From: Nemania diffusa
Lineage: Eukaryota; Ascomycota; Sordariomycetes; Xylariales; Xylariaceae
Length of the DNA: 64,000 nt
Direction of reading: 5' to 3'
Assembly: GCA_038501195.1 (NCBI GenBank)
Contig: JBBPUQ010000002.1
Location: 2,046,001-2,110,000 of the forward strand
Shown: piece after piece, positions 24,904-45,695 of the stretch
Layout of the letters: each line of letters begins with the position of its first letter
Position numbering within the stretch: position 1 is the stretch's first letter
Translations under genes and position numbers: made by a program
Notes under the pieces: model-generated
Seen by the model: the letters and a program-made list of their open reading frames with translations, nothing else
Told to the model about the DNA's origin: nothing
Database searches by the model: none

Positions 24904-27008
24904 GTCCTAGCAGATTCCAGTCATAGAGGCTGTTGTGTTGACTTATTGCCAGTGTTGACTTATGTCAGCATTGTGGTTTTGTCTGATTAATAAATAATCA
25001 AATGATTTCTACAGAAAACGAGCGTCATCATCTTGGTATTTATTTATACCCACAGAAAAAAGGGATGCCTTGAGAGGCTATGTTGGAAAAAGTGGCTGAG
25101 CTATAGGTTACAGTGTAATACTGTACAGAATATGACCAATACGTATTGGATAACATGAGATTTGATATATTTCACGAAGTAAATAAAAGAACTACCTTAT
25201 GCCACGCCGCATTTAAGACCCGCGTTTTCATAACCCAGTAAACAAAAACTTGCATAATTTTCAATATACCTAGTATATTATAGTAATCACATAAAAACAA
25301 AGACCGTTTATTAAAAACGGAATCATGTATTATAGAACAGTCTATATAACTCGACCGACTTTTTACGACGTCGCTTACGATTGCCTCATAACCATATCGA
25401 CAGGCAATACAGTCGTCACCCTCGAAAGCCAGACTACGCTTAGTAACACTTGTAATGTTTGGCTCTTCGGCTCTTCTAGAGCAACGTGCACTGCATCGAC
25501 CAAACCACGTGTAACAAACAATACTTGCACCGACGACGCGCGCTACACTCAGAAACGTGATGCTCTACAGGTTATAGACCTCGTCTACCAGCGCACTAAG
25601 CACCCCGTTCCACACATTCGTCCAGGTAACCTTGTCGTTAAAACAGCAGACGCGATAGCATCGGGTATTCGGTAGGATACTAGAGGAGCTATGCGTGCCG
25701 TCCGTGATCTTCTCTAAGCAGGCGACGCGGTTATGCCGAACGCTCTACAAAGTAGCAAGAGAGCTGTCGTTGGACAACATCTGGTGGATCGACGATATGC
25801 TCCGAATGGCTAGGGCGTATACCTATTCTTATGCTGATTCTCCCGGTTGGGTAGCTGAGGCAGTAAGCCCCGCGCCGACGCGGCCGAAGCCCTACAGAGG
25901 TGCAACCACATACATTTCGCCACTTCTAAATCGCCTATCTATTTGTATCCTCCCTCTTTAACAAAACCTAGACAGGAATGTATGTTAAAGATGCCTTGAT
26001 ATGGAAAGAAGAATCGCCTCGCGTATCTCATGACACAAGCTGTGCTAGCGAATTCACGTAGACGTGCTTGGAATCGTGGAATTGGTCAGTGTACCGGGAC
26101 AATACCTCCCCTCGGGCGGCATGCCTTGCCAGGAGCTGCATTCACTACCCTTATCGCCTCTTGTCGGGCGTGTGACTAGGTGTCAAGAATACAATAGGTA
26201 TCGTGCTAGGTGGTGGCGGGCACATCTCAACGCAATACGACTGTGAACTGGAAAATGAAATTACGAGAAAGAGTTCTTCAATTTGTGTCAGTCTCCTCCC
26301 TTGACCTAACCTTGCAGGTTTACTCCTTCTAATCTACATTATACTTTTACAGACTCAAATATAGGCACTACCCATAGTAGACCATACTAAATAGTTTCCA
26401 ATTGAAGGGAAGTTGGATGCACTTGACTAGATTTCAATCGATCCGAGGGCGGCCCAAGCGACAAGCAGCTTCCAAGATTGGAGCGTGCCTTTACTACTAA
26501 TGAATGATGCTCGAGTGCGTAATGTTCAGCTGTAGAAGACGGTATAACAGTAGCGGTTATTAGCACTATGCTTGTTTATAAATGCGGAAGGGACAAGCGA
26601 AAGGGATTTGTAAGGTGTGGAATGGTATATTACTGGTGATCTAAAACTCTCGCGTCTCTTCTTTTTTTCTTCTTTGGCCGACATTTTGAAACGTATGTAT
26701 GCAATTGAAATTCGTCATTTTAATTTTCTTATATAATTAAAAATATTTGTGTCTTAACATGTTAAATTCATTTTACTTATGCTGCTGTTCCTCTTTGTCA
26801 CGACTAGGGTTTAAGCCTCCAAACCACTAGGACATGTCCTTCGTCGCAAAAGGGTACAAGATACCAAGATGTCAGATCTTGGCTCTCGGAGGCTTATATT
26901 AGTAGGTCGGTCGGTTGGTCGGGTCGTGGTTGTTGTGACAGCGTCACACTCTTTATTTCTAATCATGATATACCACATAGCATGTTTTTGCTTGCACTTT
27001 TTATGTCT
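24904..27008. other. AT-rich intergenic with weak ORFs only
   Basis: About 2.1 kb. A plus-strand frame at 25325-25675 (116 codons) is Thr-rich and followed in the same frame by further stop-interrupted coding-like sequence to about 25,960. It could be the remnant of a gene but matches nothing I know. The rest (26,260-26,800) is AT-rich and featureless. Confidence 0.4.
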
Positions 27009-27078
27009 TGATCTTGTAGACAATCAAGAAGAGGTGCTATTTCATCTAACTTGCTTGATGCAACATCCTCAGCCCCAG

Positions 27079-27097
27079 CCCCCCCCCCCCCCCCCCC
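27079..27097 (+). repeat. Poly-C tract (19 C)
   Basis: A run of 19 cytosines followed by TTT, six C and TTTT. In the plus frame that leads into the micro-exon gene it would read as Pro codons. Such runs are prone to length change and sequencing error. Confidence 0.9.
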
Positions 27098-27159
27098 TTT
27101 CCCCCCTTTTCTCCCTCACTATAATAATGACTGCCTGCTAATTGAAGTTCATATTGCAG

Positions 27160-28919
27160 AGACAAACAATCATGTAAGTATTTTGTCCCCCGTTGACTTT
27201 TTGTCTTTGGGTAAATGTTCACACTATATTAGACAAAAAACAACTACCAAGTACGTTTTCCTTTGTTGCAAAGCCAATCAGCTAGAAGCTGTTATAAGTA
27301 TCTAGATAAAGCGAATTAACATCTTAACAGTTCAAAGACGTACAACCATGGTATGCTTGAGACCCACACACTTCCTTGTTACATATATCTGGTTCAAGAG
27401 CTAACTGGTGGCAGCCCCGTCGCCAGCGCAGAGTAAGCATTCCAACTTTAAGAGTTGCAACACTTCTATTTTAAGAGATCAGGTTTCTATAACTGCAGCT
27501 TTAATTCTTTTTTTCAACTTGCTAACGCATAAATATATTATAGCAAAACCCTCTCAACTATGTAAGTTTGTAGTTTTGCACCTCTTTTTTTTGCACTGTT
27601 TTTTATTTAAAATTTCTTTTTTTTTACTGTTTATGCCTAGTTATTAAATCGCAGCTATCTACACATTCTTTAAACGGCTCTATACTTACAATTGTTGCAC
27701 TAGGGCCGCCGCCCTCGCCCGGCGGTTCCGCCGCCGCCGCCGCCGCCGCCGCCGCAGCAGCAGCACCAGCACCAACCAGCCCAGCACCAGCAGCGGGCCC
27801 AGCAAGCAAGTGGACATGAGCAGCACAACCAATACACCTGACACCCTGATCTCAAACCTACAAGCTTAGATCATCTCGAACCCGATTACTTCTGTAAAAA
27901 ACTGACTATATGATTAGCAAACCGCCCAACCGGGCACAGAAGCAGTATGCCTACAAATGCCTTCGAAAATTCGAAACAGAAGCTAACACACAGCCTCTAG
28001 TACGCTAGCCAACAATTGGCTGTAAGCATATCAACCTAAAAACTTTGTATAAACCACCAAATAGAACTGATTTTTACTTTGGTAGCGCCACCGCGCTCGC
28101 CTTGCCGTAAGTTAAAAATGCATCCTTTTTTACACTTACGAAAGCTTACATTTTAAATAGGCTGCCATTGTTGCAGAAAGAGTAAAAATAAACAGTAATC
28201 TCTTTTTTAAGCACAAACTAACATATACCGTTCTTATAGATAGCACAAGTAGATATCCGCGTAAGAAGCTAGTAATTACAACCTTTTATCAAAGTATAGC
28301 TAACTATTATTATAGTATCACGCGGAGCAAGCTGCCGTAAGATATTTCCGCTAAAGCTATATATACGCTTACCTGTTATACTTACACGCTGATAGATTTG
28401 GCAAAACCGTGTCAATGTAAGTTTTCTATGTTACTTATATTATACGTATAGCTAACAATGTACTTTTAGGCATAGAACCTTGACGGTGTAAGTTTGCAAT
28501 AAATTAAAAATACAGTTGTTATTATGCTAACTAGCATTGTTGCATAGTCTATTGAAGAAGCTGTTGATGTATATAAATAATCACTGATTACTCTCGGTAA
28601 AATTTCTGCTAACATAAAAAATAGCGAGAGGTTGGAGCTGCGGCTCTTCGGGTGGTAAGTATTACACCTTTACTACAAATAAACTTTTTCTAATACTTAC
28701 AATTCTAGCAGAACAACGATGCTGCTGCCGCTAATAATGGTATTAGCAAGTGAGCAAGTGTACCTTTTAATTTCTCTCAAATTACTAACAATTATAGGGG
28801 ACGGACAAGGACAAGGATGACGACGAGGATGACGACGATGAATGTAAGCACTCTTTCTATTGTAATAGCTAGAGTTTGTGCTAACGAGTGCTAATTTGAT
28901 TTAGATAAAGATTAATTGA
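27160..28919 (+). CDS. Putative micro-exon gene, one heptad per exon
   Basis: A chain of canonical splice sites (GTAAG/GTATG donors, CTAAC-like branch sites, TAG/CAG acceptors) defines tiny exons: 27160-27173, 27233-27250, 27331-27350, 27415-27432, 27544-27561, 27704-27809, 27918-27944, 28001-28021, 28086-28106, 28161-28181, 28240-28260, 28316-28336, 28396-28416, 28476-28487, 28548-28568, 28625-28654, 28709-28749, 28798-28843, 28905-28919. Joined, they stay open for about 166 codons and end at TGA 28917. Seven exons are exactly 21 nt, phase 0, and encode seven residues each (YASQQLA, RHRARLA, AAIVAER, IAQVDIR, YHAEQAA, IWQNRVN, SIEEAVD), an Ala/charged helical sequence. An Arg-run/Ser-Thr-rich segment precedes it. 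The exons from 28086 to 28654 are best supported. The 5' end, start codon and C-terminal frame are uncertain: the last exons read either Thr/Arg/Met-rich in the continuous frame, or acidic (Asp/Lys/Glu) in another. No family recognised; non-coding transcript not excluded. Confidence 0.5.
27729..27755 (+). repeat. CCG trinucleotide run
   Basis: About eight CCG units inside the 106-nt exon of the micro-exon gene, followed by a short CAG run. Depending on frame it reads as Pro, Ala or Arg, so it gives no help in choosing the frame. Confidence 0.85.
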
Positions 28920-29701
28920 TTTTTTTGGGCCTTCGGGTTCTTATTTACTATCTCGAACATCAGGCTTTCCCTTATTTGCTAACCGAGTGTGCGTGTTGTG
29001 ACTCTGTGTCTTGAAGCTAACCAAACATCGAGGTAAGAAAGTAGAAACTAAGTTGTTTGAACAGCTAACTTTTCAGGTACTTGTGTTGGCATAAGTGGCA
29101 TAGTATATGTATCTGTACTACTAGACAGTTAAGCAGCTAGTGCGCATTGGTGTTCTTTGCTTACAACTTGTACCCTGGCATACTGGGTCAATTCCGTCAC
29201 TCGTCGATATCTGCGATGCAGTTGTTGGGCCCGCGATGAGCCTCCGCAAGTGGCGACTCGGATTGAAAACCTCCCTGGGAATGAATCCGTGTGAGTACTG
29301 ACGCCTGTGCTGGAGCCGCTGTGTTCGTATGACTAATGCCTAGCGGCATGAGATAGGGGTAGCTCCGTACTTATACTCGGATGTGGGGGGTTAGACTGTT
29401 CCATATAATAATGCCCGGGCGGCATATATCTGCCACAATATCCTTTATCGGAAGGTTAGGGCTAATAGCAACGAGTATGCTATATTCGTCTAATCCCAAC
29501 AACCCCTGCGGATCCTCTAATGAATTCGAGTCCTATGCCGTATTGTCTAATAGGGGCGCAAATCCACATCGGGAGGTGTGCTTTCTCAAACTTAAAAAAT
29601 TCGATACTCCAGCATCTAGTTAGATATTTAATCGATTTATAGGTAATCGCCCTATCGCTTACTTTAGCATAAGGAGAGGTACTAGGAATAGTGGTGTTAT
29701 C
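28920..29701. other. Downstream of micro-exon gene; possible small exons
   Basis: A further intron-like unit lies at 29033-29076 (GTAAGA donor, GCTAAC branch, TTTTCAG acceptor). A coding-looking stretch at about 29,209-29,292 (GPAMSLRKWRLGLKTSLGMN in the plus strand) ends at a GTGAGT donor, but I cannot join it to another exon. No family recognised. Confidence 0.35.
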
Positions 29702-29968
29702 TTACCACGTCGCACCTCCGACATGCTCATTTTCTCCCCTTTCGGAGATCGGGGGATTGACAAATAGTTCGCCGTTAATTCCCTTTAACGTAATCTTTGC
29801 ACCATTGTTATGGTCGCCGTTTTGAAAATGCTTAAGTTCTTCGCCGATTTTACGTATGCTGTCCTTCGTGAAAACTGGAGTTCCAGCATCGTACATGACC
29901 TGGATATCCTGACAAATCGAGTTTATCCGAGAATGTGCATTGTCGTGTAGTTCATTTCGAGGTTCCAT
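29702..29968 (-). CDS. Small orphan protein, 88 aa
   Basis: A single exon starting MEPRNELHDNAHSRINS and ending HVGGATW. It is hydrophilic, with predicted helical segments (NSICQDIQVMYDAG, SIRKIGEELKHFQNG) and no signal peptide or membrane segment. I chose this Met over a further-upstream one because the upstream extension is unlike the rest. No family recognised. A small accessory gene or an exon of a larger one are both possible. Confidence 0.4.
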   Translation of the reverse strand: MEPRNELHDNAHSRINSICQDIQVMYDAGTPVFTKDSIRKIGEELKHFQNGDHNNGAKITLKGINGELFVNPPISERGENEHVGGATW

Positions 29969-30552
29969 GGTGCAGCTTGTTGAGAAAGTAAGAATAGATA
30001 TGGTGATATAATTACGAATTCCAAGGGTAAGAAAGTACACTGTATGGTTTGGTTGAAATAAGTGAGTGGCAGAGAAGCATATATACCTATTAATATACTA
30101 ATACTAAGCTAGCGTAGTTAGTATTAATATAGCAACCATTTTTTTACAAAATATTTACGCAGGTGATAGAACCAGATTAACCTAATAAGGTTAGTATGAA
30201 ATAAAAGGGTTTTTTTTATCGCTTTGCTAAGCTCTATTTTATCTGTGGCACCCTTGGTAAGCCATATTATTTCTAGTATTTAGAATTAGTATTAGCATAG
30301 ACGACCAATAGTTAGTTAGTATTAGTACAGGGTTGAATTAGTTAATCTTAATATAGCTCTATACTAAACTTAACTAACTAATTACGAACCCTGATCTGGT
30401 GTATAAAGCCGCAACGAAATCCAAAAGAAGGAAAAGGGATCGATTCCATCGCCAGGTAAGAAGACAAGGCATAGTAGTTACACTCATTCAAGTGAGTTAT
30501 CCGTTTGTCTAACCTAGGCGCAAGACGATCTGGCATGAGTCTGATAGAGACG
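29969..30552. other. AT-rich intergenic
   Basis: About 580 bp, AT-rich, with repeated TTAGTATTA/TAACTAACTAATT words around 30,090-30,390. No gene seen. Confidence 0.5.
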
Positions 30553-30735
30553 TCAAGGCGACGACTCAGGCGACGACACAGGCGTGTTGCACTCGAAGCA
30601 AACTTGATCGGAGTAATTAACTTCTCGAATTATAGGAAAAACGCACGGGTCTCCATTTAGGACATCCCAGCATTCTGCTATGAGGCGATCGTAGCTATGG
30701 CCACAATTGTAGATGGTTTCACCCTTATCACACAT
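30553..30735 (-). CDS. Small Cys/His protein, possible zinc-binding
   Basis: Sixty codons from ATG 30735. It contains the pattern YNCGHSYDRLIAEC followed by CVFPI and a CFEC pair near the end, which together could hold one or two zinc ions. Short proteins with a K/x-Y-x-CGH start and later Cys pairs are common orphans in filamentous ascomycetes, with no known role. It may be a whole gene or the first exon of a longer one. Confidence 0.5.
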   Translation of the reverse strand: MCDKGETIYNCGHSYDRLIAECWDVLNGDPCVFPIIREVNYSDQVCFECNTPVSSPESSP

Positions 30736-32016
30736 ATCTGCGACCTGTTAGCTATAAACTAATATAAATAGGAAAGGGCTAACGAGCGTTGCCGGAAGAA
30801 GAAAGAAAGCTTAGAAGGTAATCAGCTAGACATACTGGCTTGGTCGGATTTTAATTTTATTGAAAAGTCTGACGGTATTCTACCTTCAAAAGATAGGGAG
30901 TTGAGTCTGATGTGCAGTAGATGACCTGAGAAAGCTGGTTTTCTTGATAACAATGATATTACCAGATGATTGTTGATCGTAGATAGGAGGTGGATTATTT
31001 TGTTGATGCTGGGAGGAGACTGTTCGGTTACAACTTTGAAGAGAGAGGTTCCTCATTCATATACTCGTTCTGTCCCTCAAGATTGCTGCATATGCGCCTG
31101 CTTCAAGCATGGACCTCAGTCTGTTAAGCACTCCCATTCCCAGAAAAAGAAACATTGGCCCTCAACTTCCTGGCCTTGGGCAAACTGCGAATACTGGTGT
31201 AGCCTAGCATGTTGGGTTAAGCCGCAGTCTTGCTATCAATTCTTCCCAGCCTCGTGTACGTGTGACACGATGTTGTGAGAGGGACGAGCGAATCAGGAGA
31301 GTGTTTGGTGAAGCGCAGTTGCACGAGGTTGTGAGGGAGACGAGCGAACTTTGAAAGTGTTTGGTGAAGCATGGTTACACTACCCAATACAAATGAGGCA
31401 TCGCGGTACCCTTCTCAAGAGCCAGTTTCGTAGACCTCCGCGTGGCTCGACTGGTGATAAAAAAGCTCTCGGCCTGCCAGTCAGCCATATCCACTTCGTT
31501 TTAACCCTCTCAATAATATAGCCAATCAATTTTGAAGTATTATATGCATTCTCCAGGACATTATCCCTCGGCGGTTATGAACACATGGAAGCAACGCGAT
31601 AGTGATACGTTGAACCAACACAATATTAAATCGAACTTGAGCAAGGAAAACCAACAATAGTTTGTACAATTCGGTTACGCTAAGCTGTAGCTTACGCGAA
31701 ATTTAAGAAAATGGCAACTGCTGATAAAATGGCAAATACATGGTCATGACGACAATACGTGAGTCCTGTAATATGGCCAATTTTGTGACCCAAGATGTGC
31801 AGAGGGCGGCGCTTAACTAAGAACAGGGTGAGCCGAACCTAAGCAAAAGCAAATAGGGTAAAAACGAATCAACACAGTTAAAGCATATAGATCAATAATC
31901 TCCTTAAAGTAAATGTAAAAAGGAAAAAAAAAACGTTCACGGAAAAAGTCTATCAAACTAGTAAATAATACTCAGAAACCTGCTGGCCATTTACCTAACT
32001 ACATATAATCCCCGAT
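30736..32016. other. Intergenic with a short tandem duplication
   Basis: About 1.3 kb. It contains an imperfect 56-bp tandem duplication (31,266-31,379). A plus-strand frame at 30,970-31,278 is Cys/Trp-rich but has no convincing start context or relatives, so I do not call it. Confidence 0.5.
31266..31379. repeat. 56-bp imperfect tandem duplication
   Basis: Two adjacent copies begin at 31,266 (cacgatgttgtgag) and 31,322 (cacgaggttgtgag) and share gtgtttggtgaagc. Non-coding context. Confidence 0.7.
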
Positions 32017-34897: not shown

Positions 34898-35290
34898 TGT
34901 GACGGTATAAGTGGGTCTAGTGGGGCGAGCCCAAAGGGTCGGGTTATAAGATCCACCCAAGTGAGCTTACCTAATAAAAAGCCTGAAAAGAGGCTTCTGC
35001 GGAAGCCTCTCCACTGCCTACAACACTACTTGTTAGGATTACCACTTATTGCAGGTACTTACTATTGCGGGCGAGCGAAAGCGATTACGAAATCGAGGCT
35101 TAAAAGCGAAGCACCAAGCCCGATTTTAGTATTTACTAAAAATATATATATATATATAAAGCTTAAAAATTAAAAAGTTAAAATAACTAAAATATTTAAT
35201 AAGTTTTATTTTAATATATTTTTTAAAATTATTTTAGTTATATTAGTTTAATTTTATTTATTAAGTTTGATTATATTTTTATATATAATA
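34898..35290. repeat. Left LTR (393 bp)
   Basis: It starts tgtgacggtataagtg. About the first 230 bp keep normal base composition, while the remaining part is mutated to nearly pure A/T. It ends atatataata, corresponding to atacgtaaca of the right LTR. Confidence 0.92.
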
Positions 35291-38200
35291 ATTATAAGTT
35301 TAGTTTATTTATTAAACTAGTATTTTTTTAACAAACAATTTTAACTTTTATTATTGTAAGCATTTTTATTTTATTTTTTTTTTATATTATTTTATAAACT
35401 ATTATTTACTTTTAATATATTATTTTTTTTATTTTTATTATATTTTTTAAAAAAATTAAAAAAAATATTAAAATGTTTTTAAAAATTAGCTATAACTAGC
35501 TAAAATAATATAACAAGCTTAAGTTTTAAGCTATAATATAAAATATTTAAAATTATATAAATTTAAACAATATTATATTTATGTTTAAAATTGAAATTAA
35601 ATCAAAGTTTTTTATTAATAAAAATATTAAATTAACTATTTTATAAAATCGGGCTAACTAATATTAAAAAGATTTTAATAAATAAAATGTTTTAAAAAAT
35701 AATAATTTTAAAAAAAGCGCTTTATAGCTAATTTTTAAAAAAGTATAATTAATAATAGCTAAAGTTAACATAAAGTTTAAAAAGTTTATTAAAATTTATT
35801 TTAATAAAATATTAAAATATATAGCTAATATTATTTAATATATTAATTTATATAATTAAATTTTAAATTTAATTAATTTTAAGTATTTAAAAATAATATT
35901 AGTATAAATATTTAACAAAAATAATTTTAATATTAAATTAGTAATTAAATATTTAAAAAATAATTTAGCTTTTATAAAATTAGCTGTTATAAATATTTTG
36001 TTAGTTAAATATTAAATAGTTTTAAATTAAGTTTTATAATATATAAACTTTATTTATTAGTATAAAAATTAAACAATTATTTATAAAAAAGCAAAAATAT
36101 ATTAAATATTTAATATAATAAAAGTATTTGCAGTTAAAAAAATTTTTAAAACTATAAGTAAATATATTATTTTTAAATAAACTATTAAATAGTTTTTTAT
36201 TTTATTTTAAAACAAGCTTTTTTATAAAAAGTAAATATTTATATTAAATTAATTAAAACAAATTTTTAAAAAGTTTATTTATAAAAACAAATTAAAAGCT
36301 TTTTAAAATGTTTTAAAAATTTATTATATTTTAAAAAATAAAACTTAAAAATAGTTTAAAAAAAAAAAATATAAAAAATAGTTTAAAAGTTTTTAATACT
36401 TTTATAAATATTAAATAAAATATATTTATTTTTAACGTTTTAAAATATATGAACTTTTTTAATATATAGTTATAAAATTTACAAAAAAAGCATTAAAAAA
36501 AATATTTTTTATAAAAAAAGTAAAAAAAATCAAAAAGCAATAAAAGTATATTTAATAAAACAATTTTTAAAAAAAAATCAAAAAAAGCAAATAAAAAGTA
36601 AAAAAAATTACTTTTAAAAAAAAAAAGTTAAACAATAAAAAAACTTAGTATAATAACAATATAATATATATAGTAATTAATTTATTTTTTTTAAAATTAT
36701 ATTTAATTTTAAATATTTATATAATTAAAATTTAAAAGCTATATTTTTTATTTAATAGTATATTATTAAATAACTATAATGTTTTTTATTTTGTAAATAA
36801 TAAATTGCTTTTAAAAAAAAAGTTTTTTAAAATTGCTAAAAAAAAAGCAGTAATAAATATTAATACTTTTTAATTTTTAATTTTAAAAATAAAAACTTAA
36901 ATTATAAAAAATGTACTTTTAAAAAAAAATAAAAAAAAATTAGTTGATTTAATATTTATTAAAGTAATATTTATAAAAAAATTTTATATAAATTTAATTT
37001 TTAAAGCTTGTTTTTAAAAAATAAAAATATAATATTATAAATTAAATTGTACATTAAAATTTAACAAATTTAAAAAAAGCAATATAATTGCTAAACTTTT
37101 AAAATATTATAACTTAATATTTTTTTAATATAATTTATTTTTTATTTATTTAAATTGATTTTTTATAATAAATATAGTATATATTTTAATAAAAGTTTTT
37201 ATAAATATAGTAAAACTTTTAACAATTTTAATATAAATAAAATAAGTTTTTTTATATTAATTTTTTAAAAATTTTTTAAAACTAAAAAAAAACTTTAAAT
37301 ATTTATAATATTTAAAGTTAAAATATTTAAAATTTAAATTATTTAAAACATTAATATATAATATAAAAAATATAAAAATTAATAAAATTTTATAATTTAA
37401 ATATAAAAACTATATAAAAATATATATTTTATAGAAAATTTTAAAATAAATTTTTAAAAAAATATTAGTAAAACTTTTTTATAAAGTTTTTTAAAATTTG
37501 TTTAATTATTTAAAAAAATTTAATAAATTGTAGTAAATATTAATATTTAAAAATAAATTTAATAATATAATTTAGTTTTATTTTTTTAAAAATAAAAAAT
37601 AAAACTTTATATTTAAATAAATTAAAAAATTTAAGCATTAAATAATATAATAATTTAAGTTTTTTATAATAAAGCTTAAAAATAATAACAAAAAAGTAGT
37701 TATTACTATTTAAAAAGCTATATATTATAAATTTTAAACTAAAAAAAAAAAAATCGATTTAAAATTTTTATTAAACTATATTAAAAAACTAATAAAAAAT
37801 AAAAAAAAAGTAAGCAAAAAAATAATTAAAAAATTAATTAAAATGTTTTTAAAAATTAAGTTTTTAAGTTTATTTTAACTAAAAATAATTTAAATAATAG
37901 TTTAATTATATAATATTAATTTTTTAAAAAAAAACAATTTTTATATATTTTATAAAATGTTTAAATTATAATTTAATTAATATTTTAAATAATATATGTT
38001 TAAAATAAAAAAAAAGTTAAAAATTAATTTTAAATTAAACTAAAATTAAATTTTTATATATAAATATAAAGCTTATTTTTTAAATAAAAATAAAAAAGCT
38101 AGTTATAATTATTAAACTTTTAAAATAAAACTAAAAGTATATATTAAATATTTAATAAAATATATAACAAACAATTTATATAAAATTTAAATTTTTTATT

Positions 38201-43072: not shown

Positions 43073-44876
43073 CTCCTCTAATAAAGCATCAATAAATAAC
43101 TTGATTTCAGCCCTATCGTAAAAGATATTGGTAGCTAGATAATCAAGAACAAAACGAGCATATAAAAACATGCCTTACAAAATTATTAGCTATGAATTCT
43201 GTCGCGGAACAGTGCACCGTTACTATTGTGTGACCCAGGACCCAACAAAACATTGTCGGCGGCGAGTAACTATCTTAATGACAGAGCAGGAGAATAGTTA
43301 CATACCATCAGCTTTGTTCGTGATTACACGTGCGAGCCCCTCGACATCCTTTTGGGCTAGTCCCAGCTGTTGAAACTTGTCATGAAGCAATTGAAGACGC
43401 TGAGAGACATACTGCATAATGGCAAGCTTAAGGCTTCTCGGCTCGTCGGATAGGGATATCGTTTGACTTGCTCGCAATCGTTTGGCGATGGTATTCGAGT
43501 ATCGGCTAGATATCAGTACTTTGCAGACAGTATCACCACTTGATGCCGTTTTCCCCGAGAGCTGATTTAAGAAACCAATGATGCTTGTTTGCTGCGATGG
43601 TTCACATTCATTGAGGCCATCGAGGATGATCCAAACGTACTTGATATGCCTGGGTTCGCTTGACATGACCTTGAGGAGAGATAGAAGCAACTTCTCAAGA
43701 GCTTGCACCGTTGGAGGCTTTCTGCCAAAGACGTGATCCTTATAAACATGAGCAACGAGTTCGTTGTGGTTGCGAAGCAGCTGAAGTAAAAGCGACCTCA
43801 GGATTTCATGATATAACGTTGAAGAAGCGTATCTTTGGCTGCAGAAGTGACGAATAATAAGTTGATTTGACGCTCGCATAAACTTGATAACTTCAGAGAG
43901 AAGCACACTTTTACCAGACCCAGGCTTTCCATTTAGCCATAGAATTGGGAGGTCCGGGCTGGATTGAAGCCAAGAGCTGATCTTGAGATTCTTCAATGCC
44001 CAGGAGCAGGTTCCGGTGGTTTTAGAACTCTCGGAAGATATGATGTCAAGTATTCGAGATTGATCAGATTCATCGATCTTGAACCAAGCGATAATCGATT
44101 CGTATTGCTTAGTAGACTCCTGGTCATTCAATTGTCTAATGTTATAGAGACTATCTTCTCTCCAGGCTTTGATCTCCTCGCGCATCTCTCGAGCTTCTGC
44201 AATATGTAAAGCATTTGCTTGTAAGTCGATTAGCTCTCCATGGCGCTTCATGTCTTCAAGAAGATTATCAAAACGTCGCTGAAAGCGGCCCCAAGATGTA
44301 AGAAACAAAAGTTTCCAACCTAGTTAGCTCCCATATTAGACACCATTGCGAGGCAGACGTCACAAGTTAAAGTTACGTACCGTTACGGCGAACAAATTGA
44401 TAAGCGTTCTTGTGATACAACAGGATATCAGCATAATAGACAGCGAGGGTTTGTTGAAAGTCCATATCGTTCGCAAGGGCTTTGTTGAGGGTTGCGAATC
44501 GTTTCAGAGACTCGGCGATCTTTGAGTAGCCCTTGATGACCTGCTCAAACGCCTCCACATACTCGGAAGCGATTTTCAGGATCAGTGTGATCGGGGCCCA
44601 GATCCATGACAAGTAGGGTGTACCGTTGCACAGAATCGCGACGACATTCGCATAGTGTTCCATGCCTTGGAACAATGGCATTAATCGTCTCATACTGCGG
44701 AGTGCCTGGCGGGCCGCCATTTGGTTCTCGATAACAAGTGCGGATTTTCTCACATCTTCCAATGTAATAGTAGAAAACCCATGAGAATCATCTGGAGTGA
44801 TATTGTTTTCGATCTCGTTAAAAGCGGACTGCATAGTCCGTCTTGCGGACGCCGAGACTGCAGGTTTGAGAGGCAT

Positions 44877-45695
44877 TGCGATGTGATGTGTGCATAAAAT
44901 GATGCCGAAATTGGTGAGTTATGGTCATTAATATGGGATAACCTATTTTTTTAAGTAGCTCATCAAGCCTATGGCAATCATACCAAGCCGAGTTTCTCTC
45001 AAAGGTATCACTACGAGTGGGTGATATTCGTACACCTGGTCAGCACAGCCCTAGCGACGCATTCTCATTTCTTATTCCGTAGTACAATGCAACCTCGAAG
45101 CGGCGATGGTGGCGGAAAAGTAATGTCGCTGAACATAGGGTAGGGTAGGGTCCGCCAGCTTACTTCGGTACAGGCTGTACCGTACGGCCGCCTGCTGGCT
45201 AACCCTACTTGAAACGACTTATCTGTAGGAGAACGAACTGCATATGGCCGCCGTACCACCTTTGATTGGATCTTTAACTTACCATTCTAATAATATGAGG
45301 AGGCCTCATCCAATTGTTGTTGCGAAATGGGGGCTCAGGCTGATGACGGTGCCTGCAGGAAGCCGCCCCTTTGACAAGGGGCTATCCTGCAGCTTGGAAC
45401 ATAAGGTTGAAATTCTACTAAGTATTCCCTCTAGCCATGGCGGACGGCCTCTATTTATTCTGAGGGTCTCCATAGCTAATGTGACAGCTTCTAACGCAGC
45501 AGCTAATACCCTTCGATGAGACACTTTCCTGGCAGAGCGTTTATTCACTCACTCTTCCCTTCTGCCTCACACGCTAAAGATATCTCACCGCAGCTGGAAA
45601 ACAGGCTTTCTCATTTAAATTCTCTTGAAATTTCACGTACCAAGTTAACTGACCTAACCTTACGGGCGTCATTTATATCCTGTGGGTTTGTCGCA
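44877..45695. other. Divergent promoter region, NLR and SNF2 genes
   Basis: About 820 bp. Open frames run through parts of it (45,244-45,519 plus strand; 45,306-45,548 minus strand), but they lack family resemblance and overlap each other. The SNF2 frame is open upstream to 45,516, so a longer N-terminus is possible. Confidence 0.5.

Follow-up and report, generated by a model that had tools for sequence, protein, structure and literature searches.

A probable protein-coding gene assembled from micro-exons in Nemania diffusa

Ascomycete genes usually contain few introns, and the question raised by this locus was whether a row of exons of seven codons or fewer, lying within a 64,000-nt stretch of Nemania diffusa DNA (the window), is spliced into a genuine coding message. 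The locus is very probably a protein-coding gene of an ascomycete near Nemania and Xylaria, with a message joined from about 16 coding pieces that are nearly all very short and frame-neutral. The evidence for this assignment differs along the gene and is given below for the central row, the flanking exons and the product.

The central row of exons and its homologue

The first-pass annotation had described eight exons of 21, 21, 21, 21, 21, 21, 12 and 21 nt between 28001 and 28568, all in phase 0, open when joined and separated by introns of 54-64 nt. The exons were present letter for letter, phase 0 was kept throughout, and the seven introns measured 64, 54, 58, 55, 59, 59 and 60 nt. Joining the eight exons gave YASQQLARHRARLAAAIVAERIAQVDIRYHAEQAAIWQNRVNNLDGSIEEAVD without a stop, and the other two frames contained 2 and 5 stops. 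All eight exons were preceded by a TAG acceptor. The donors were, in order, GTAAGC, GTAAGT, GTAAAA, GTAAGA, GTAAGA, GTAAGT, GTAAGT and GTATAT, and were thus GTAAG-like except for GTAAAA at 28182 and GTATAT at 28569. The G+C content was 28% in the seven introns compared to 50% in the exons. Codon usage over the eight exons favored frame 0 (8.8 bits versus −8.5 and −36.9 in the other frames; p 0.001 against base shuffles), a preference due in part to the absence of stops.

The major data bearing on the splicing of these exons were obtained from a single homologue. The joined protein, with the proline run masked, was searched against proteins along the lines proposed in the first-pass annotation. 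It matched GQX73_g7011, a hypothetical protein from Xylaria multiplex with a length of 76 aa (here P0001), at E 4.2e-17 (for 5.77 billion database sequences) and with identity at 43 of 59 residues. P0001 was the single relative among 62 candidates at E ≤ 1 in this search, which detects proteins that have five-residue words in common with the query and are 0.55 to 1.75 times as long, and other relatives may have been missed. An initial search with a 140-aa query had returned 543 candidates, none at E ≤ 0.1, the 76 aa of P0001 falling just below the 0.55 floor. As a control, the neighboring Elongin A frame retrieved 191 proteins; among those listed, the best match was 99%, followed by entries labelled Lasiodiplodia mahajangana at 74% and Nemania at 71-72%, and many were from Xylaria. 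The many Xylaria and Nemania proteins in this control indicate that the database is rich in Xylariaceae and that the window lies near Nemania and Xylaria. That P0001 alone emerged from such a database is a point against the assignment.

P0001 was then aligned to positions 26901-29250 of the window with any GT..AG pair of 40-170 nt accepted as an intron in any of the three phases, using neither a splice matrix nor a length preference. The alignment recovered to the base the exon at 27918-27944 and the six 21-nt exons of 28001-28416, all in phase 0. Its score was 202; when P0001 was shuffled 60 times, the scores averaged 36.8 and reached at most 54, and the opposite strand gave 38. The junctions from 27918 to 28416 were deemed to be real because P0001 matches the joined product without gaps across the 27-nt and the six 21-nt exons, and the proposed joining was thereby borne out for this part of the gene. 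The core at 27918-28416 is thereby settled as a set of micro-exons joined in a conserved coding sequence, conservation being judged from the protein sequence of P0001. Seven exons of exactly 21 nt had been claimed. Homology upheld the six at 28001-28416 and did not extend to the seventh (28548-28568), where the residues of P0001 are only loosely comparable.

The genome annotation of X. multiplex was made ab initio with the AUGUSTUS web server and A. oryzae parameters (PMC7380537). A run of this kind could have predicted either micro-exons or a contiguous frame for P0001.

The chain of introns was also compared to chance. Introns were scored with a fixed splice matrix for filamentous ascomycetes, set independently of these data, and chained over short exons. 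The best chain in the window scored 96.7, compared to a mean of 29.4 and a maximum of 53.0 for 200 dinucleotide shuffles of the window on both strands. The second-best chain (36.2) was the 5′ part of the same gene, at 27174-27640, with exons of 18, 20, 18 and 18 nt. When strong introns only were chained, the locus gave 12 introns, or 10 if each exon length had to be divisible by three. The longest chains for comparison had 2 introns in the remainder of the window, 4 in 300 shuffles and 3 in 46 further genome stretches. These 46 were what remained of 50 compared loci after 4 that correspond to this locus, and one of them (L003) falls inside the window.

That the locus is not coding, consisting instead of AT-rich DNA with chance splice motifs or of a multi-exon RNA without coding function (for instance a snoRNA host), was considered scarcely credible. 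AT-rich DNA often has splice-like sites, and one locus elsewhere in the genome, L012, reached a loose chain score of 60.1; it was rejected as a candidate on account of its many weak introns and the lack of a frame. As L012 warns, loose chaining alone is no proof of a micro-exon gene. The non-coding reading is, however, contradicted by the homology to P0001 and by the shuffles, and for 27918-28416 it was judged to be already refuted by P0001. In Rfam, region 25000-31000 gave nothing at the gathering score, its three weak matches (E up to 0.5) being far below. The pattern ATAG-N21-GTAAGT was not in excess genome-wide, with 118 places compared to 131 for the reversed control.

The gene model on either side of the core

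The exons and candidate exons of the model are collected in Table 1.

Table 1. Exons and candidate exons of the gene model, in positions of the window
Feature	Position	Strand	Basis
Putative 18-nt 5′ untranslated exon	27233..27250	+	splice-like flanks only; no homology support
Putative 20-nt exon ending in likely start ATG 27348-27350 (3 nt coding)	27331..27350	+	open joined model; start inferred, outside the P0001 match
18-nt exon PRRQRR, phase 0	27415..27432	+	splice signals; open joined model
18-nt exon QNPLNY, phase 0	27544..27561	+	open joined model
102-nt phase-0 exon, GRRPRPAV followed by a poly-P and Q/H-rich part; GC donor (GCAAGT)	27704..27805	+	open joined model
27-nt exon QTAQPGTEA	27918..27944	+	matches QNAQPGTEA of P0001
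21-nt exon YASQQLA	28001..28021	+	splice signals; spliced alignment to P0001
21-nt exon RHRARLA	28086..28106	+	splice signals; spliced alignment; 7/7 identical in P0001
21-nt exon AAIVAER	28161..28181	+	splice signals; spliced alignment to P0001
21-nt exon IAQVDIR	28240..28260	+	splice signals; spliced alignment to P0001
21-nt exon YHAEQAA	28316..28336	+	splice signals; spliced alignment to P0001
21-nt exon IWQNRVN	28396..28416	+	splice signals; spliced alignment to P0001
12-nt exon NLDG	28476..28487	+	splice signals; P0001 reads EWNLNG here; its alignment enters at 28476 and leaves at 28485
21-nt exon SIEEAVD	28548..28568	+	splice signals and frame; no P0001 confirmation
30-nt exon REVGAAALRV	28625..28654	+	splice signals and frame; no homology support
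Possible 41-nt (or 38-nt) asymmetric exon, or part of a 143-nt intron (28655-28797), or alternative end (TGA 28751-28753)	28709..28749	+	splice-like
Acidic exon GTDKDKDDDEDDDDE, then phase-1 intron	28798..28843	+	tail matches EDEDEDDDDEY of P0001; start from TAG acceptor
Final coding piece, supplying the rest of Y and then K, D, TAA	28905..28915	+	sequence and P0001 alignment

P0001 does not contain the N-terminal part of the model, and the exons from ATG 27348 to 27805 were inferred from an open joined model lying outside the support of the homologue. Three upstream exons of 18 nt had been claimed. Two of these (27415-27432 and 27544-27561) were placed in the open model from this ATG, while the third (27233-27250) would be 5′ untranslated. 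Region 27806-27917 is likely a GC-AG intron with the donor GCAAGT, and the model requires it for the Pro/Gln exon and QTAQPGTEA to be joined in phase 0. A GT donor at 27810 could be used instead, but it scored poorly (−4.6 bits) and lies in another phase. The presence of a GC donor is a point against the model. Within this intron lies an ATG reading MSSTT, perhaps where P0001 starts (MSRSD). The best splice-scored path from ATG 27348 used 5-nt exons and left the YASQQLA frame. Free splice-scored paths of this kind, with 5-nt exons or in another frame, were set aside because they contradict P0001. Just upstream of the gene, at 27070-27115, a long C run and a CT-rich tract are promoter-like for a fungus.

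The NLDG exon can be entered from either of two TAG acceptors spaced by 6 nt; that at 28469 is 14 nt from the branch A and that at 28475 is 20 nt from it. Entry from the nearer one extends the exon to 18 nt and brings in an in-frame TAG in place of the EW of P0001. This TAG can itself be the further acceptor, whose use gives the 12-nt exon and an open frame. The arrangement may serve to bypass the stop, act as a switch or reflect decay. Since the nearer acceptor gives a stop, transcripts may be truncated, and the gene could be decaying at this point. In one rival reading, the gene is conserved and functional in relatives but a pseudogene here, disabled by this TAG and by the frame-breaking 41-nt piece of Table 1. 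For this reading, the stop follows directly after IWQNRVN-A if the acceptor nearer to the branch A is used. Against it, the same TAG can act as the further acceptor, the 41-nt piece can be intron, the other model exons are open and in phase, and their codon usage is coding-like. Decay was rated as quite unlikely.

The path taken by the P0001 alignment after 28416 (28476-28485, 28638-28651, 28810-28843 and 28905-28906) differs from that of the gene model, so that the 3′ half of the model is less certain. The alignment enters the acidic exon at 28810, compared to the start at 28798 set by the TAG acceptor. P0001 ends at DDDDEY, and its acidic tail matches the last exons of the gene. Because P0001 ends in this way, the acidic exon was preferred as the end, and the coding run probably finishes through it, via the phase-1 intron at 28844-28904, at the stop 28913-28915. 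The acidic exon is in frame if 28655-28797 is removed as one 143-nt intron, and inclusion of 28709-28749 loses the acidic frame. In an alternative joining, the open model runs on after the REVGAAALRV exon to the TGA at 28751-28753. The best splice-scored path from 28001 passed through the eight exons of 28001-28568 to a 38-nt exon (28712-28749) and ended in an RTRT-type tail instead of the acidic one. A reading of exon 28625-28654 as ERLELRLFG was dropped, as no phase leads there.

Product, splicing and origin of the equal exons

The product is proposed to be a small intracellular protein of about 137 aa, which would have a basic start, a Pro/Gln-rich stretch, one long helix (about 54 residues) and a tail of acidic residues, and which would probably serve as a scaffold or adaptor. 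The start of the modelled protein, MPRRQRRQNPLNY, is charged and has no hydrophobic stretch (by reading, from the putative start codon). No Pfam family was found for P0001, and the four weak matches of the 137-aa model were all below the cut-offs. P0001 was predicted as one helix spanning residues 10-63, with a pLDDT of 84-98 by blocks over residues 11-60; as the prediction was made from a single sequence, it is a lead rather than proof. The predicted helix agrees with the helical product claimed earlier.

The further claim that each exon is one heptad in coiled-coil register was not supported. The helical-moment test gave p = 0.39 over 53 aa and 0.93 over the first 42, and the column variance gave p = 0.11-0.18. 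The 3.5-residue hydrophobic periodicity was not significant, and position 6 of the seven was weakly hydrophobic (p 0.03-0.11). With heptad periodicity not significant, coiled-coil register is an unproven reason for the length of 21 nt. The suggestion that exon skipping or duplication makes length variants is possible, being compatible with the frame.

With regard to splicing of the proposed coding gene, the introns of 54-64 nt would be removed one by one through intron definition, in which splice sites are paired across the intron. As held for fungi, intron definition has no lower exon-size bound comparable to that of exon definition, so that exons too short for exon definition would pose no obstacle; a study of intron definition in S. 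pombe is among the references of PMC11121469. The retention of introns was assessed over 19 candidates, some of them mutual alternatives and all read as phase 0. A stop was met within the first 18 codons in 17 of them; one of the remaining two had a later stop and the other (28182-28239) had none. From these stops, it was deduced that retention would usually abort the product. An exon of seven codons spans about two helical turns, and its gain, loss or skipping would alter the helix length, with the frame preserved and the helix face almost unchanged. This tuning of helix length is the least certain step of the explanation.

Two explanations address the origin of the equal exons only and are compatible with the coding gene proposed above. 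According to the first, the ancestral frame was short and uninterrupted, as it would still be in X. multiplex, and the present lineage gained at least seven phase-0 introns, about one every 21 nt. Ab initio AUGUSTUS would be expected to find a contiguous frame for P0001 more easily than seven consecutive micro-exons, and the similarity between introns, with branch sites left in, was slightly above that of shuffles (mean 18.3 versus 17.2; reached by 6 of 200). On the other hand, the best intron pair was ordinary, being reached by 42 of 200 shuffles, and the introns lacked the near-identity or genomic repetition of introner-like elements. The 971-base stretch 27950-28920 was found as a single copy in the genome by a search that skips very common words, and no introner family was seen. 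The start of P0001, MSRSD, falls where the Nemania gene has an intron and gives a weak hint that an intron is present in X. multiplex too. Serial gain of introns was held to be a tentative possibility.

According to the second, an ancestral exon-intron unit of about 79 nt was duplicated in tandem, as is held for collagen exons. This was suggested by the equal exon lengths in one phase, by the spacing of exon starts (72-89 nt from 28001 to 28798) and by an exon nucleotide similarity slightly above that of shuffles (8.75 versus 8.14; reached by 13 of 200). It was not supported by amino acid column identity over the seven 21-nt exons (18 compared to 14.9 when shuffled, p 0.19) or by the best exon pair, which was ordinary (187 of 200 shuffles reach it). 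Tandem duplication was deemed unlikely. The slight similarity among exons and introns neither proves nor excludes an old duplication.

Copies elsewhere in the genome were sought in several ways. A search of the joined 63-aa protein against the genome gave no match and found no contiguous copy, but it also missed its own locus and is thus blind to micro-exons. The pattern of ATHTGGCARAAYMGNGTN with at most one mismatch occurred at 20 places compared to 16 for the control, with three exact occurrences including this locus; 10 of the 20 places were inspected, and the other two exact ones were rejected, as they lacked a TAG acceptor and a GT donor at a distance of 21 nt. When the RHRARLA exon was searched together with its splice ends, this locus was the one place found in the genome. 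The QPGTEA pattern occurred at five places compared to six for the control, the one exact occurrence again being this locus.

Relation to known micro-exon systems

The claim that no described fungal family has this design was consistent with the open-access literature, in which nothing comparable was found among the papers listed. The nearest likeness in architecture is to two animal systems, and the gene is a member of neither. In the micro-exon genes (MEGs) of Schistosoma, most of the coding region lies in very small symmetrical exons, which permits alternative splicing without loss of frame; MEGs are apparently restricted to platyhelminths, and all their products have a signal peptide (PMC4350168). 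As in MEGs, all coding exons of the model but one (102 nt) are 46 nt or shorter, and symmetrical exons are found, those of 27 nt and six times 21 nt being in phase 0 by homology and those of 12, 21 and 30 nt in the model. Unlike MEGs, the gene is fungal, has a putative charged start (MPRRQRR), gives no evidence of secretion and contains six consecutive 21-nt exons. The bicycle genes of aphids have numerous internal exons that are unusually small, alike in size and in a single phase (phase 2), together with a CYC motif, and their structure was used to find divergent relatives (PMC9168663). In contrast, the core described here is in phase 0, the model protein on reading has no cysteine and hence no CYC motif, and no paralogue was found by a search blind to micro-exons.

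Among fungi, Xlr2 of Trichoderma virens contains a single 20-nt microexon, which its 2024 report puts forward as the first of its kind with a function in filamentous fungi (PMC11121469); it is one microexon in a zinc-cluster transcription factor and not a gene built of them. Microexons of 2-10 aa, along with frequent introns (45-55 bp), were described in 2005 for the P450 genes of Phanerochaete chrysosporium (PMC1184071). These genes differ in having microexons among larger exons and in being a basidiomycete enzyme family.

Six consecutive 21-nt exons in a conserved gene test how small an exon can be served by intron-definition splicing, and the gene is a well-defined example for tracing phase-0 introns to gain, to duplication or to loss in a relative. 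The exon structure in X. multiplex would be of interest either way, as it would point either to a conserved fungal micro-exon gene or to at least seven introns gained at 21-nt steps in one lineage (or lost in the other). The gene also points to genes that standard annotation and protein databases would miss. A broader and doubtful extension is that Xylariaceae carry a class of symmetrical micro-exon genes overlooked by ab initio annotation, in which seven-codon exons would be interchangeable two-turn length units of a single long helix, with splicing adjusting which of them are included or evolution adjusting how many there are; this gene would be its first seen member.

Two other features of the window were recorded. 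At 35000-35999 the G+C content falls to 13%, forming an AT island that adjoins a frame with DUF7896, and at 43298-44918 a NACHT/NPHP3_N frame adjoins a DUF7708 frame, an arrangement assigned to a fungal NLR-like gene.
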